This document shows positions 2 to 55,448 of a stretch of DNA of 64,000 nucleotides, piece by piece. Under the pieces are notes generated by a model. It made no database searches. It was not told the origin of the DNA and saw nothing but the letters and a program-made list of their open reading frames with translations. Origin of the DNA: Arthrobacter sp. NEB 688 (GTDB lineage Bacteria > Actinomycetota > Actinomycetes > Actinomycetales > Dermatophilaceae). Numbering within the stretch: position 1 is the first letter of the stretch; the number at the start of each line of letters is the position of its first letter. The stretch is taken from assembly GCF_013201035.1 (NCBI RefSeq), contig NZ_CP053707.1:1550001-1614000 (forward strand). The letters run 5' to 3'. A program made the position numbers and the translations under genes.

Positions 2-1159
<1,158 letters not shown>

Positions 1160-1176: not shown

Positions 1177-1250
1177 CACTGGTTGCGCATCCGCCGCCTC
1201 GGGAGGCCCGTCCGAGCCCCTCGCAGGTGGCGGATGCGCAATTAGTCGGG
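1177..1250. repeat. 74-base palindromic intergenic element, copy A
   Basis: This element fills the gap between the convergent subtilase and VWA genes. A perfect 13-base inverted repeat, TTGCGCATCCGCC (1183-1195) and GGCGGATGCGCAA (1229-1241), flanks a 33-base GC-rich loop. The ends CACTGGTTGCG and CGCAATTAGTCGGG recur almost unchanged in a second 74-base element at 49374-49447, whose stem sequence differs. It lies 11 bases beyond the stop codon of the minus-strand VWA gene. It could be a bidirectional terminator or a member of a dispersed repeat family. Confidence 0.7.
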
Positions 1251-1261
1251 TCAGGACGCGG

Positions 1262-3286
1262 TCAGCCGGCCCAGAAGCCGCGGCCCCCGAAGAGGTCGCG
1301 GTAGGAGCCGAAGGCCGCCTGCCCGGGCGCGCGCCCGTCGAGGTAGGACCCGACGACCGCTGCCCCGAGGTCCCCGAGCTCCGGCGCGACGACCCGCCCG
1401 CGCGCCCGCCGGGCCATCGAGTCGACGAAGCGGGCCAGGCCCGGGTCGTCGCCGAGGCGGAAGAACGTCACCTGCGCCCCGAGCCGCGCCGAGGCGTCGA
1501 GCTCGCGGACGGCCAGCGCCAAGGTACGCGGATGCGGCGGGTAGTCGAAGAACACGCCGCCGCCGGGCTCGAGGTGCGACGTCGGCTCGCCGTCCGTCAC
1601 GATGAGCAGCACCGGCTGGGCGTCGGGGTGCTTGCGGAAGTGCCGGTTCGCGAGCAGCAGCGCGTGGTGGAGGTTCGTGCCCTTGTCCCACTCGGCGTCG
1701 AGGCCGGTCAGCGTCTCGATGTCCATCGTCCGTGCGTGCCGGGCGAACGCGACGAGCTGGAGGTCGTCGCCGCGGAAGCGGGTCGAGACGAGCTGGTGCA
1801 GCGCGAGCGCGGTGCGCTTCATCGGCACCCAGCGGCCGTCCATCGCCATGGAGAACGAGGTGTCGACGAGCAGCGCCACCGCGGCCCGGGTGCGGGCCTC
1901 GGTCTCGGTCACCTCGACGTCGCGGATGTCCAGGCGCATCCCCTGCGCCGGGTCGCCGCCCTCGCCGACGACGCGGGTGATGGCGTTGGTCATCGTGCGG
2001 GTGGTGTCCCAGGGCTCGGTGTCACCGAACTCCCACGCCCGCGTCCCACCGCTCTGCTCGCCGGCGGCCCCGGCCTGGCGGGTGTCGCGCTGGCCGCCGC
2101 GGCTCGACAGCCGACCGGCGACGTCGCGCAGGAGGGACTTGCCGAGCTCGCGCATCGCCTTGGGGGACAGGCGGAGCGACCCGTCGGAGGAGCGGGTGAG
2201 CATCCCGCTGTCGCGCAGCGCCCGCTCGAGGTCGGCGAGCGCGCGGGCGTCGACGGCGGCGTCCTGCCCGAGGTGACGCGCGAGGGCGTCGAGGTCGACG
2301 TCGTCCATCCGCGACCCCGGCCCGGACTGCGACAGCTGCTCGGAGAGCGCGTCGAGCTGCGCGAGGTCCTGGAGCACGCCGGTGCCGTCACCGAGCCCGA
2401 GCCCCTGCTCGCCGTCGAACCGCTCGGAGCCGCCCCAGTCCTCGCCGGGGCGCAGGCCCTGCAGCAGGCCGTCGAGGCGCGAGAGCTGGTCCATGAGTCC
2501 CGGTGAGCCGAAGGCCTGCTGGGACAGCTGCATGAGCTCGGCGCGCTGCTCGGGCGACATCGAGGCCATCATCCGCTGGGCCGCGGCGGCCCGGGCGGCG
2601 AGGGCGTCGACGAGCTCCTCGACGGTCTCCGGCTGCTCGGGGAAGAAGTCGCCGTGCTTGTCCATGAAGTCCCGGAACTGCTGCGAGGTGTCGTCGCCGC
2701 GGGCGTGCGCCTCGAGCAGGTCGCCGAGGTCGCGGACCATCTCCTCGACGGCGGCGCGGTCCTCGTCGCTCGCGTTCTCGAGGGCCTGCTTCATCCCGGC
2801 GAAGCGCTGGTCGAGCAGCTCGCGGCCCAGCAGGTCCTTGATCTCCTCGTACTTCTGCCGCCCCTCGGACGAGCGCCACGCATAGTCCGACAGCTCGCTC
2901 ACCGCGGCCGCCGGTGTGGGGGAGAGGTTCTCGATGCGCATCTCGGCGAAGCGCGCGTCGTCGTCGAGGTCGCGGGCCAGCTGCTTGCGCTCGGCGAGCA
3001 CCGCCTCGTCGAGCAGCCGGCGCACCTCCTCGAGGGTGCCGTCGAGGTTGTGGCGCTGGAGCAGCTCGCGCCGCCGCTCGGCCACCCGGCGGGCCAGCTC
3101 GTCGAGCCCGGGGTGGTCGCGGGTGCCCTGGCGCAGCAGCTCGCGCATCGCGCGCTCGGGCGAGTAGCCGGCCATGACGTCCTCGCCGATGGCGTCGAGC
3201 GCCTCGCGCAGGTCGACCGGCGGGGCCAGCGGGTCGCCGCCCCCGTACCGGGTGAAGCGCGAGCGCCTCGACCCCCGGTCAGCCAT
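1262..3286 (-). CDS. VWA-domain protein, partner of the upstream MoxR-type ATPase
   Basis: 674 residues. A long helical, Arg/Glu/Asp-rich N-terminal half precedes a von Willebrand A domain with a MIDAS motif DTSFS starting at Asp475 and a later TDGEPT loop. In MoxR/VWA and chelatase-type pairs the VWA protein binds a metal ion and couples the AAA+ ATPase to a substrate. Length and architecture match Rv0959 of M. tuberculosis (recalled, not searched). The start ATG lies inside the end of the ATPase gene (ATGGCTGA, 8-base overlap), which implies translational coupling. A role as a real magnesium chelatase is unlikely, since no bacteriochlorophyll genes are visible. The substrate is unknown. Confidence 0.85.
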   Translation of the reverse strand: MADRGSRRSRFTRYGGGDPLAPPVDLREALDAIGEDVMAGYSPERAMRELLRQGTRDHPGLDELARRVAERRRELLQRHNLDGTLEEVRRLLDEAVLAERKQLARDLDDDARFAEMRIENLSPTPAAAVSELSDYAWRSSEGRQKYEEIKDLLGRELLDQRFAGMKQALENASDEDRAAVEEMVRDLGDLLEAHARGDDTSQQFRDFMDKHGDFFPEQPETVEELVDALAARAAAAQRMMASMSPEQRAELMQLSQQAFGSPGLMDQLSRLDGLLQGLRPGEDWGGSERFDGEQGLGLGDGTGVLQDLAQLDALSEQLSQSGPGSRMDDVDLDALARHLGQDAAVDARALADLERALRDSGMLTRSSDGSLRLSPKAMRELGKSLLRDVAGRLSSRGGQRDTRQAGAAGEQSGGTRAWEFGDTEPWDTTRTMTNAITRVVGEGGDPAQGMRLDIRDVEVTETEARTRAAVALLVDTSFSMAMDGRWVPMKRTALALHQLVSTRFRGDDLQLVAFARHARTMDIETLTGLDAEWDKGTNLHHALLLANRHFRKHPDAQPVLLIVTDGEPTSHLEPGGGVFFDYPPHPRTLALAVRELDASARLGAQVTFFRLGDDPGLARFVDSMARRARGRVVAPELGDLGAAVVGSYLDGRAPGQAAFGSYRDLFGGRGFWAG

Positions 3287-48724: not shown

Positions 48725-49162
48725 TCACGCGCTGAGCGCCGGGGGCTCGTCGGTGGTGGCAGGGCTGTTGCTCCCGTCCGTCGGGTCGCGGCTGCCGGGT
48801 CGCCCGAGCGCGAGCAGCTCGGCGGGCGGCCAACGCGTGGGCGCCACGGGCACCGCCAGGGCGACCGGCGGCGTGTCGGGGTCGGGTTCCGGGTGGCCCC
48901 GGTGACAGAGCGCGAGGCGGTACTCCGTGGGCCCGAGGGCAGCGACCACGTCGGTGAGCCGGAGGTCACCGGCGTCGGTCTCGAGCCGTGCGACGTGGCT
49001 CGTCGACCATCCGCGATGTCGAGCGTAGGCGCGCTGCCCGAGGCCCAGCCCGCGGCGGTGGGTCCGCAGCGCCACGCCGACCTCGTGGGCCACCGTGAGG
49101 GCCACCCGCGCCGCATGCAGCTCGCGGGCGACGGTGGGGGAGGTGAGGGGAAGGAGTCTCAT
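48725..49162 (-). CDS. Xre-type helix-turn-helix DNA-binding protein
   Basis: 145 residues. The helix-turn-helix is LRTHRRGLGLGQRAYARHRGWSTSHVARLETDAG, with the typical Ser-Thr-Ser-His-Val recognition helix. A Pro/Ala-rich tail of about 50 residues follows. The start at 49162 is preferred; an upstream ATG at 49237 would add 25 Arg-rich residues of low plausibility. It stands alone between murB (convergent) and a 299-base gap. Targets are unknown. Confidence 0.65.
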   Translation of the reverse strand: MRLLPLTSPTVARELHAARVALTVAHEVGVALRTHRRGLGLGQRAYARHRGWSTSHVARLETDAGDLRLTDVVAALGPTEYRLALCHRGHPEPDPDTPPVALAVPVAPTRWPPAELLALGRPGSRDPTDGSNSPATTDEPPALSA

Positions 49163-49311
49163 GCCGGGAGCCTCACCCCGTTCCGCCACCGGCCGACAGA
49201 CCCCTCGCGCGGACTGTGGACGACGGCGCGCCGGCATCCCCCCTGTGGACGACCACGGACGCGAGCCTCCGCTGTCGTGATGACGCAGATCGTCCGGAGT
49301 CCAAGGACATC

Positions 49312-49360
49312 GGGTCGAGGTGAAAGGGGACCCGCTGGTGGTCGGGTTTCACCTCGACCC
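49312..49360. repeat. perfect 14-base inverted repeat in the Xre-add gap
   Basis: GGGTCGAGGTGAAA (49312-49325) and TTTCACCTCGACCC (49347-49360) pair exactly around a 21-base loop. It lies 13 bases before the 74-base element at 49374. Confidence 0.7.
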
Positions 49361-49373
49361 CGCCCTCAATCTG

Positions 49374-49447
49374 CACTTGTTGCGAGCTCCGCCGCTCGAC
49401 ACACCCTGGAACAGCGCGTCGAGCGGTCGAACTCGCAATCAGTCGGG
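49374..49447. repeat. 74-base palindromic intergenic element, copy B
   Basis: TTGCGAG (49380-49386) plus CCGCTCGAC (49392-49400) pair with GTCGAGCGG (49418-49426) plus CTCGCAA (49432-49438). The ends CACTTGTTGCG and CGCAATCAGTCGGG match copy A at 1177-1250 in 23 of 25 positions, and the lengths are identical. It sits 14 bases beyond the stop of the minus-strand adenosine deaminase gene. Confidence 0.7.
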
Positions 49448-49461
49448 CTGTGACGACCTGC

Positions 49462-50547
49462 TCAGGTCAGCCAGGCCTCGATGTCGGCCTCGGCCTCCGC
49501 GCGCACCGACGCCGGCGCCCGGCTGGCCGCCAGCGACGAGCGGGCCAGCCCGGCCAGCTCGGCGTCGGACAGCCCGTGCACGGAGCGCGCGGTCTCGTAC
49601 TGCTCCACCAGGCGTGAGCCGAAGATCAGCGGGTCGTCCGCGCCGAGCGCCACGACCGCCCCCGCGGACAGCAGCCGGCGCAGCGGCACGTCCGCCGCCA
49701 CGTCGTAGACCCCCAGCGCCACGTTCGACCCCGGGCACACCTCGAGCGCCACCCCGGCCTCGACGACCCGCTCCAGCACCCGCGGGTCCTCCACCGAGCG
49801 CACGCCGTGGCCGATGCGGTCCGGCAGCGCCGCGTCCAGCGTCGCCGCCACCGCCTCGGCCCCGAGCAGCTCACCGGCGTGCGGCACCGACGCCAGCCCC
49901 GCGTCCCGCGCGATGCGGAACGCCGCCGCGAACTCCGCCGTGTCGCCCCGGCGCTCGTCGTTCGACAGCCCGAAGCCGACGACGGCCCCCGGGCCGCTCC
50001 CCGCGTTGCGCGCCGCCAGCCGGGCCAGCGTGCGCGCCTCGAGCGGGTGCCGCATCCGGGACGCCGCCACGACGACCCCGACCTGCGCCGCCCCCGGCTC
50101 GCGCGAGACCGAAGCCGCCTCGTCGAGGACGATCTCCAGCGCCGGCGTGATGCCCCCGACGAACGGCGCGTACGACGTCGGGTCGACCTGGATCTCGAGC
50201 CACCGCGAGCCCTCGGCGCCGTCGTCGAGCGCCGCCTCGCGGACGATGCGCCGCATGTCCTCCTCGCCGCGCACGCAGGCCCGCGCGACGTCGTACAGGC
50301 GCTGGAAGCGGAACCAGCCGCGCTCGTCGGCGGCGTCGAAGAGCGGGGGGTAGTCGTGCGTCAGCGTCGCGGGCAGCCGCATCCCGTGGGCGGCCGCCAT
50401 CTCGCGCACCGTCGTGACGCGCATCGAGCCGGTGAAGTGCAGGTGCAGGTGCGCCTTCGGCAGGGTCGCGAGCGGCCGCGCCCCCGAGGGGACGCGGCCG
50501 TCCTCACGACGCACCGCCGGGGTGCTCCCGGCCGGTGCCTCGCTCAC
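49462..50547 (-). CDS. add: Adenosine deaminase family protein
   Basis: 361 residues. Metal ligands His35 and His37 are in KAHLHLHFTGSM; HAGE, DRIGHGVRSVED and GADDPLIF provide the rest of the site. It deaminates adenosine or a relative (6-aminodeoxyfutalosine deaminases share this fold). The Thr usually seen in NTDDP is Ala here (GADDP). It overlaps the upstream DUF5709 gene by 4 bases (ATGA). Copy B of the palindromic element follows its stop. Confidence 0.88.
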   Translation of the reverse strand: MSEAPAGSTPAVRREDGRVPSGARPLATLPKAHLHLHFTGSMRVTTVREMAAAHGMRLPATLTHDYPPLFDAADERGWFRFQRLYDVARACVRGEEDMRRIVREAALDDGAEGSRWLEIQVDPTSYAPFVGGITPALEIVLDEAASVSREPGAAQVGVVVAASRMRHPLEARTLARLAARNAGSGPGAVVGFGLSNDERRGDTAEFAAAFRIARDAGLASVPHAGELLGAEAVAATLDAALPDRIGHGVRSVEDPRVLERVVEAGVALEVCPGSNVALGVYDVAADVPLRRLLSAGAVVALGADDPLIFGSRLVEQYETARSVHGLSDAELAGLARSSLAASRAPASVRAEAEADIEAWLT

Positions 50548-54019: not shown

Positions 54020-54928
54020 GTGTCCGACCAGTGGACCGACACCCCCCAGCAGGGGTCCGACGACACCGCAGAGGTTCCCGTCGACGACACCCCCGTGCAG
54101 GAGGTCGACGCCGCCGCGGCCGAGTCCTTCGACGCCGCCCGCGAGGCCGGCACCGACGACGACGGTGACACCACCGCCGACGAGGTCGCCGACGACGCGA
54201 CCGCGGACGACACCACCGACGAGGCGCCCGACGCCGACGCCGATGCCGACGTCGAGGACGACGAGCCGGCCACCCCCGTCGACGAGGACGGCGACGTCCT
54301 CGACGCCGTCGACCCGGTCAAGGCGTTCAAGGACGACCTCGCCTCGAAGTTCGGCGACTGGTACGTCGTGCACTCCTACGCGGGCTACGAGAACCGCGTC
54401 AAGGCCAACCTCGAGAACCGCACCCAGTCCCTCAACATGGAGGACTACATCTTCGAGGTGCAGGTCCCGATGGAAGAGGTCACCGAGATCAAGAGCGGGC
54501 AGCGCAAGCTCGTCCGCCGCGTCCGGATGCCCGGCTACGTCCTCGTCCGGATGGACCTCACCGACGAGTCGTGGGGCGCCGTGCGGCACACGCCGGGCGT
54601 CACCGGCTTCGTCGGCAACGCGCACCAGCCGGTGCCGCTGACCCTCGACGAGGTCTTCACGATGCTCAAGCCGGCCGACCTCGAGACGCCCGCCGCCGCG
54701 GCCGCGTCCGGTGGCTCCGCCTCCTCCTCCGGCTCCTCCTCGGGCGACGCGACCGTCGTCGACTTCGAGGTCGGCGAGTCGGTCACCGTCATGGACGGCC
54801 CCTTCGAGACGCTGCCGGCGACGATCTCCGAGATCAACGCCGACACCCAGAAGCTCAAGGTGCTCGTCTCGATCTTCGGCCGGGAGACCCCGGTCGAGCT
54901 CTCCTTCGGCCAGGTCGCCAAGATCTGA
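54020..54928 (+). CDS. nusG: Transcription termination/antitermination factor NusG
   Basis: 302 residues. An acidic Asp/Glu/Ala/Thr-rich extension covers about residues 1-105. The NGN domain follows ([50 protein letters not shown]). A Gly/Ser linker (about 225-250) and the KOW domain ([25 protein letters not shown]) complete it. The ribosome site GGAAGAGG precedes the GTG. NusG binds RNA polymerase and couples it to Rho or ribosomes. The long acidic extension is common in actinobacteria. Confidence 0.96.
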
Positions 54929-55016
54929 CCGGAGGCCCCTTTCGCGGGGGACCCGCGGACACTGCAAAGGGGTCATCGCCCACGGCGTCGGCCCACACCA
55001 CCGAAGAAGGACAGAC

Positions 55017-55448
55017 ATGCCCCCCAAGAAGAAGGTCTCCGGGTACATCAACCTGCAGATCCAGGCCGGTGCCGCCACCCCGGCGCCCCCGGTCGGCCCC
55101 GCGCTCGGTCAGCACGGCGTCAACATCATGGAGTTCGTCAAGGCGTACAACGCGGCGACCGAGCACCAGCGCGGCAGCATCATCCCCGTCGTCATCACGG
55201 TCTACGAAGACCGCTCGTTCACCTTCATCACGAAGACCCCGCCGGCCTCGGAGCTCATCAAGAAGGCCGCCGGCGTCCAGAAGGGCTCGGGCGAGCCGCA
55301 CAAGACCAAGGCCGGCAAGCTCACCAAGGACCAGCTCCGTGAGATCGCCGAGACCAAGATGCCCGACCTCAACGCCAACGACGTCGACGCCGCGATGAAG
55401 ATCATCGCCGGCACCGCCCGTCAGATGGGCATCGAGACCGAGCTCTGA
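55017..55448 (+). CDS. rplK: 50S ribosomal protein L11
   Basis: 143 residues, normal length. [34 protein letters not shown] is the rRNA and thiostrepton-region N-domain, and [25 protein letters not shown] the C-domain. It binds the GTPase centre of 23S rRNA. The ribosome site GAAGAAGGA precedes the ATG. Confidence 0.98.

Follow-up and report, generated by a model that had tools for sequence, protein, structure and literature searches.

Two intergenic elements of equal length, copies A and B, lie in the 64,000-nucleotide stretch of actinobacterial DNA analysed here (the window, positions 1,550,001-1,614,000 of a 4,077,299-bp contig; the genome is called G000 below), and they raise the question of what kind of sequence would keep its ends, change its stem and sit just behind genes. 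The original prediction had given both copies 74 bases and matching ends, had placed them 11-14 bases past the stop codon of a minus-strand gene, and had read their differing yet paired inner stems as the mark of a dispersed structured family, whether terminator, REP-like element or processing site. Length, places, ends and distances were all borne out (Table 1), and so was the pairing: against 200 dinucleotide shuffles, copies A and B reach z-scores of -6.1/-6.4 and -4.0/-5.4 on the two strands. Their stems are two types that recur in the genome, copy B having the commoner, GAGYTCCGCCGCTCGAC-like one and copy A a rarer one with ATCCGCC that is found at eight other places. The gap that holds copy A is convergent, because a plus-strand subtilase stop at 1159, 17 nt away, faces the minus-strand stop at 1262, 11 nt away; the subtilase orthologue in genomes G005 and G010 likewise has an element with the same feet and another stem past its stop codon. 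Within the window, A and B are the only matches to model R2 with E<0.05, and three more have E values of 0.07-0.83.

Table 1. Features of the window around copies A and B.
Feature	Position	Strand	Description
Copy A	1177..1250	.	Core ACT..AGT 1178-1246 (69 nt); second stem type GCATCCGCCGCCTCG; covariance-model match 1172-1252
Copy A left foot	1178..1186	+	ACT-GG-TTGC
Copy A right foot	1238..1246	-	Reads GCAA-TT-AGT on the plus strand
Copy B	49374..49447	.	Core 49375-49443 (69 nt); common stem type GAGCTCCGCCGCTCGAC; covariance-model match 49369-49449
Subtilase-family (S8) gene	119..1159	+	Pfam PF00082, E 1.2e-45; ends 17 nt before copy A
VWA-domain gene	1262..3286	-	Pfam PF13519, E 9.6e-8; ends 11 nt from copy A; convergent partner
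Adenosine deaminase family gene	49462..50547	-	Pfam PF00962, E 1.2e-82; ends 14 nt from copy B

Another dispersed palindrome, GGGTCGAGGTGAAA..TTTCACCTCGACCC, occupies 49312-49360, directly ahead of copy B. It is found again in G000, G003, G005 and G010, where tandem arrangements with a period near 64 are frequent, and is present also in the part of the chromosome from which the 69-nt family is absent. Near the orthologue of copy B lies a further palindrome, CTCTCGGTTG..CAACCGAGAG, repeated in G005 (L166) and in variant form in G010 (L165).

Copy number and anatomy of the repeat

The two-ended pattern ACTNGTTGCG..CGCAAYNAGT has 18 matches at 16 places in the 4.08-Mb genome and none in the reversed control. 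Single ends, searched in the window with two to three mismatches allowed, are not in excess (53 against 70 expected and 48 against 65 expected); the excess over chance belongs to the two-ended arrangement, not to single ends. A covariance model, R1, built from the 16 pattern-found places gave 95 matches with E<=0.006 at no fewer than 49 places, two weaker matches having been dropped, and 49 is a lower bound because 150 of 15,566 first-look candidates were scored. The covariance-model search that had been proposed for the genome and its relatives was thus positive on both counts, with at least 49 places here and matches in 21 of 149 family genomes, and the dispersed structured family exists. 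The 10-mer TTGCGAGTTC occurs 50 times in the genome and never in the reversed control; since 48 of these occurrences lie inside mapped copies and two elsewhere, neither truncated halves nor longer forms of the common stem type were seen genome-wide.

The repeat is a near-palindrome of the form CCC-S-ACT-NN-TTGC-stem-loop-stem-GCAA-NN-AGT-S-GGG. Among the 49 places, the foot ACTNNTTGC is exact in 43 and GCAANNAGT in 42; both are exact in 37, of which 36 have a core of 69 nt, and the remaining 12 places differ by one or a few bases. A wider set of 85 Phycicoccus elements (42 from G000, 30 from G003, seven from G005 and three each from G002 and G010) was extracted by a loose foot pattern plus pairing, and their core measures 69 nt in 82, 70 nt in two and 68 nt in one. 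Because this extraction required ACT..TT in one arm and A[AG]..AG in the opposite arm, only the GC of TTGC/GCAA tests the feet freely, and it departs once among the 82 elements of 69 nt. In the same 82, NN is almost always TC, GA, TG, GG, CA or TA and is complementary between arms in 27, against 25.7+-3.9 expected for independent arms, and so is not paired more often than chance would give. A reading of NN as a target-site duplication was set aside, equal dinucleotides on both sides showing no clear excess in the table as read by eye. The base S before ACT is G in at least one arm of 84 of the 85 elements.

The inner stem behaves differently. At stem positions 11-14 and 17-20 of the 82 elements, 95-100% are paired against 64-99% in shuffled controls, and at positions 15-16 68-71%; in 23 sequences chosen for diversity (two of genus g17), 92.5% of cells pair, against 75.1% when shuffled and 32-47% when the partner is slid, with a covariation score of 0.444 against 0.143 shuffled. 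From pairing, covariation and foot counts together, the stem is kept, or copied, as a palindrome and the feet as sequence. Conserved feet with an NN unpaired beyond chance suggest that the feet are recognised by sequence.

Other repeats accompany the family. Local repeats of ~190-335 bp carry the 69-nt element at G000 54452-55030, 505283-505556, 924139-924670 and 1467780-1468080 and in part also hold other palindromes, and between tandem 69-nt elements lies a palindrome-like GGCAACACGC..GCGTGTTGCC or GGGTTGCC (L006 1622-1665, L002 1620-1665). Another hairpin family, again with fixed ends and variable stems, has similar outer arms, CGCGAACGTGTGTGAA, and differing inner stems at G000 1474, 421577, 873288, 1088416 and 3261053 (L092, L094, L096, L097 and L209), several of them in convergent gaps, and a recurrent palindrome GGCTACACCGCAG..CTGCGGTGTAGCC is found at G000 670078, 874304 and 3118468.

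Position at gene ends

By the gene calls of a simple codon-score caller, 48 of the 49 places fall into 35 intergenic regions, 22 convergent, 12 codirectional and one divergent; the sole exception, 286535, overlaps a weak predicted gene. The two outcomes that would have told against the predicted family, namely an absence of further copies and a remnant of an ordinary gene, were therefore not what was found, and a coding origin was rejected. Convergent gaps make up 22 of the 35 occupied regions, against 33 of 250 sampled gaps of at least 60 bp, the window's own included (p 1e-11); the gap of copy B was called convergent over 898 bp and a minus-strand ORF at 48725-49237 may intervene, so that 21 of 35 is perhaps truer. 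In codirectional gaps, the element lies within 40 nt of a stop codon in 10 of 12.

Hairpins in general show the same preference. Strong ones, with z<-3 against mononucleotide shuffles, occupy 0.82 of 11 and 0.67 of 15 convergent gaps that lack the family, 0.17 of 52 and 0.15 of 81 codirectional gaps, and 0.04 of 24 and 0.02 of 50 divergent gaps. The family fills a niche in which G000 keeps hairpins, since family-free convergent gaps usually hold other strong hairpins and divergent gaps seldom do. The hairpin is GC-rich and lies past a stop codon, as in a terminator of the U-tract type, but the U-tract is missing: the T fraction in the 12 nt past AGT is 0.120 against a background of 0.126, and a T-run of four or more is absent at all 98 sides of the 49 places.

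In this respect the elements resemble the U-lacking structured 3' ends, or I-shaped terminators, of Streptomyces, which likewise place a stable GC-rich hairpin with little U past the stop codon (parts of PMC8269248 and PMC12207403). Of 535 highly structured 3' ends mapped for S. clavuligerus, 353 were classed as lacking U and read as possible I-shaped terminators or Rho-dependent ends (PMC8269248). The difference is that shared sequence feet are found in the present family and none are described in the parts of PMC8269248 and PMC12207403 covered here. Copies A and B could be ordinary bidirectional terminators of a high-GC actinobacterium, locally duplicated and kept by selection, with feet that reflect shared ancestry only. 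Convergent gaps, the other hairpins in the same niche and the frequency of U-poor structured ends in the Streptomyces Term-seq data (353 of 535, in the same part of PMC8269248) all agree with this, yet we consider it unlikely; the NN inside the foot, unpaired beyond chance, already speaks against it.

Shared sites and their stems in related genomes

P. jejuensis NRRL B-24460 and P. sonneratiae MQZ13P-5 account for 17 of the 18 stretches that the common-stem two-ended pattern matched in named genome contigs; the remaining one, in a Kiritimatiellia MAG, was taken as chance. Model R1 matched six of 12 genomes of the genus (Phycicoccus), and its matches in G021, G026 and G042 (L047, L048 and L049) were rejected as other palindromes without these feet. 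Model R2 at E<=0.001 matched at least 21 of 149 family genomes in at least seven of 53 genera: five Phycicoccus genomes, nine of genus g17 with at least 14-31 matches each under a ceiling of 31 scored candidates per genome, two of g65, and five genomes with at least 1-4 matches. Absence from this family-wide search is no proof, as it missed G011, whose loci match R2 directly. In other genera, exact ACTNNTTGC and GCAANNAGT feet surround other stems in 18 of 23 loci and are lacking in five, a conservation that is partly selection by the model, since R2 models the feet. Such elements occur in no fewer than two genera besides Phycicoccus, g17 and g65, and feet kept there around an entirely different stem count against ordinary terminators. 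The 18 cores measure 50-73 nt, and a length of 69 nt is a Phycicoccus trait. By eye, many of these loci lie within ~20 nt of an apparent stop codon.

Phage records held no match of copy A and plasmid records none of one common-type element, and a phage or plasmid origin was rejected on these searches; the hairpin that two viral contigs share, although it fits a similar pattern, is unrelated. At gathering score, Rfam returned only four tRNAs for the window, and six element loci at E<=1 gave only matches below the gathering score. Judging by listings, and with few subscription papers covered, no description of this hairpin family was found in the literature.

Closer relatives allow loci to be compared one by one. 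In P. jejuensis (G003), 25 of 27 tested matches can be placed at G000 element loci by one flank or both, and so can all seven matches of G005; three further G003 copies (L236-L238) match no such locus. For 12 G003/G000 pairs, including two that are mis-registered (505379 and 518133), identity is 84.6 at the same locus against 80.6 across loci (0 of 5000 permutations). Because same-locus identity exceeds cross-locus identity, the copies of these two genomes are related by vertical descent. Two G005 pairs show no same-locus excess, the number being too small.

Genome G010 gives a different picture. One element from each fetched region was tested, 17 in all; 11 of them correspond to G000 element loci and six do not, three of the 11 mappings being loose (by one flank beside a duplicated site, by a distant right flank, and one base out of register). 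At the 11 shared sites, same-locus identity is 66.8 against 67.4 across loci (p 0.79), and the feet are 84.4% identical. The inner stem is 28.6% identical at the same locus, against 80.4% between loci within G010 and 61.5% within G000, where there are two types. At these sites the stem follows the genome and not the locus, a further point against ordinary terminators. Among 18 G010 copies, TTGC is followed by CCAGAACCCA in 12 and by variants in six, one of which is the ATCCGCC type of G000. In G002, five of 11 elements map to G000 element loci and six do not, and stems differ between copies. The foot-adjacent segment there (L317-L327) varies from copy to copy and mostly pairs, the G010 set being more homogeneous.

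Single loci illustrate these relations. At 1,152,584, the same pair of stop codons encloses an element in G000, G003 and G005, with stem type 1, and in G010, with CCCAGAACCCACC. At the copy-A locus, G000 has GCATCCGCC, G005 and G010 have CCCGGAACCC and CCCAGAACCC, P. jejuensis has an unrelated perfect hairpin in the gap instead, and G006 has another. At 924 kb, G000 and G003 carry type 1, G005 and G010 the AACCC type and G011 a GACTTTTCAGGC..GCCTGAAAAGTC hairpin, with none or other hairpins, by eye, in the other seven genomes. At 598 kb, type 1 is accompanied by a second hairpin in G000 and G003, and G002 has its own stem; G005, G010 and G009 have only another hairpin, and in the remaining six genomes inspection by eye showed no obvious large one. 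G005 is mixed, with type 1 at six shared places and the AACCC type elsewhere.

Mechanism, rivals and meaning

The gene-end position favours a role at mRNA 3' ends, which would fit the terminator or processing site of the original prediction, and the conserved feet with lineage-specific stems favour a REP-like element that is propagated or homogenised; U-tract, REP tag and Y1 transposase are all missing. With a probability of about 0.52, copies A and B belong to a REP-like family of bidirectional hairpins at mRNA 3' ends, present in Phycicoccus and some related genera, with feet that a putative factor probably recognises and stems homogenised within the lineage. The 3'-end role is read from position, and the homogenising agent is likewise a putative one. 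Transcribed from either side, the hairpin would act as the mRNA 3' end, as a terminator without a U-tract or as a barrier to 3'-5' exonucleases for Rho-terminated transcripts, and this function would keep a hairpin at its site. The feet would be recognised as sequence by a trans-acting activity or would serve as homology for gene conversion, and the foot-acting activity would spread copies and overwrite old stems with the current one, leading to concerted evolution at fixed sites. Selection for hairpins at gene ends, combined with foot recognition, would account for stems that pair whatever their sequence, for the constancy of the feet, for sites common to several genomes and for stems that go with the genome. 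Gene conversion could do without a dedicated enzyme; it would have only feet of ~10 bp to work over, and we consider it unlikely. Homogenisation is probably not continuous, because G000 and G003 copies keep a memory of their locus (84.6 against 80.6).

Some observations run counter to this reading, among them the missing T-runs, the absence of a mobilising gene from the searches for a Y1 transposase in G000 and beside three clusters, the locus memory of the G000 and G003 copies, and the core lengths of 50-73 nt in other genera. Stems differ between copies in G002, and six of 18 G010 copies depart from the commonest stem, which tells against stem homogeneity; turnover of sites, with six of 17 G010 and six of 11 G002 elements off G000 loci, tells against replacement in place. 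Because sites turn over, independent insertion into favoured gaps is a possible source of the G010 pattern as well. In its full form, this alternative would make the family a transposable element of MITE or REP type, with terminal inverted repeats CCCSACTNNTTGC, inserted independently into 3' ends in each lineage by a putative transposase. Inverted feet, dispersed copies, clusters, a patchy presence in the genus (six of 12 genomes by R1) and unshared sites, to which the three P. jejuensis copies L236-L238 belong, all suit it, as does the G at S of one foot in 84 of 85 copies, which makes the two ends non-equivalent. We hold it to be rather unlikely: 25 of 27 P. jejuensis matches and 11 of 17 G010 copies stand at G000 sites, half-elements and longer elements of the common stem type are lacking (48 of 50 TTGCGAGTTC occurrences fall in mapped copies), G000 has no Y1 transposase, and no target duplication was recognised in the flanks by eye. 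The elements do share with MITEs a short length, dispersal and terminal inverted repeats; unlike MITEs, they have no parent element with the ends of the common stem type in the genome, and the whole element is near-palindromic. Inverted repeats shared with an autonomous transposon were likewise not found, the search with TTGCGAGTTC (48 of 50 in mapped elements) bearing on the common stem type only.

The nearest described relatives are REPs. In the parts of the papers drawn on here, REPs carry a GTAG or CGTC tag and measure 20-50 nt (PMC3733652, PMC8266576), lie between unidirectional and convergent ORFs and switch class at orthologous RAYT genes, the so-called orthoswitch (PMC3686654); those of E. 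coli need a mismatch bulge in the stem (PMC3733652, PMC8266576, PMC3686654), and tagged bacterial REPs are described predominantly from Proteobacteria, many being tied to a RAYT (PMC3733652). The present family has many dispersed intergenic palindromes near gene 3' ends and, like REPs and REPINs with a RAYT as described in those parts (PMC3733652, PMC8266576, PMC3686654), lies mostly downstream of genes and joins a conserved motif to a variable palindrome. Unlike REPs, it has no GTAG tag, no Y1 transposase in G000 and, in Phycicoccus, a core of 69 nt in place of 20-50; what is conserved in it is a foot, mostly paired, at each end, and stem differences are seen at scattered shared sites instead of being limited to the surroundings of a transposase gene. 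Within 19 nt around 98 feet, GTAG occurs 0 times, CTAC once, CGTC 14 and GACG eight times, which does not amount to a tag. The Y1 (RAYT-type) transposase PF01797 has no match in G000, with control matches in five of 14 genomes, and a RAYT-driven REP was rejected on this ground. Since the tag and transposase tests failed, the family is REP-like in place and form and not a REP member. The six genes beside three clusters included no mobiliser: two encode c-di-GMP enzymes, three others a cupin, a transporter subunit and a peptidase M50B, and the sixth has no match.

DNA uptake sequences of Neisseriaceae also occur in terminators, where they form inverted pairs behind genes and come in dialects that differ between lineages. 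The present family shares the inverted pairs, their place and the lineage-specific variants. It differs in that the inner stem is the lineage-specific part and the outer foot is shared, and in that the 10-mer TTGCGAGTTC occurs only twice outside mapped palindromes.

All 49 places lie in one 2.2-Mb arc, from 3.507 Mb through 0 to 1.599 Mb, with dnaA inside it at 0.838 Mb; the remaining 1.9 Mb (47%) has no found places, though it holds convergent gaps with other hairpins. By hand calculation, the chance that 35 random points on a circle all fall within some 53% arc is ~2e-8. In G010, a single contig of 4,071,256 bp, the 18 examined places occupy 1.913 Mb through 0 to 0.127 Mb, the same arc by synteny, which is no independent replicate because the G010 sites are largely orthologous. 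With a limit of E<0.1, local sampling with R2 found nothing in the empty arc (420 kb) and nothing either in nine 20-kb stretches of the occupied arc outside the window, where ~3 regions were expected, and GC skew gave no signal for the terminus. Nucleoid-occlusion sites avoid the terminus region, and the arcs of both genomes would agree with chromosome-organising sites whose feet bind a nucleoid or division-site protein; this is very unlikely, as a DNA-binding site needs neither a variable paired stem nor a 3'-end position, the G010 sites are largely orthologous and the R2 sampling, empty in both arcs, lends it no support.

The preferred reading of REP-like 3'-end hairpins has a stricter form, which we regard as rather improbable, in which a dedicated enzyme would recognise the inverted feet CCCSACTNNTTGC of fixed 3'-end hairpins and replace the interior with the lineage's current stem. 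Were such rewriting true, sites would be inherited vertically while the stem would spread horizontally inside the genome, within the origin-containing part of the chromosome. Here an actinobacterial genome with no Y1 transposase carries hairpins at gene ends, many of them at positions common to several species, whose stems change although site and feet are retained. The family offers a natural experiment on the spread and concerted evolution of non-coding hairpins, and its foot is a defined sequence with which the responsible protein could be fished out.
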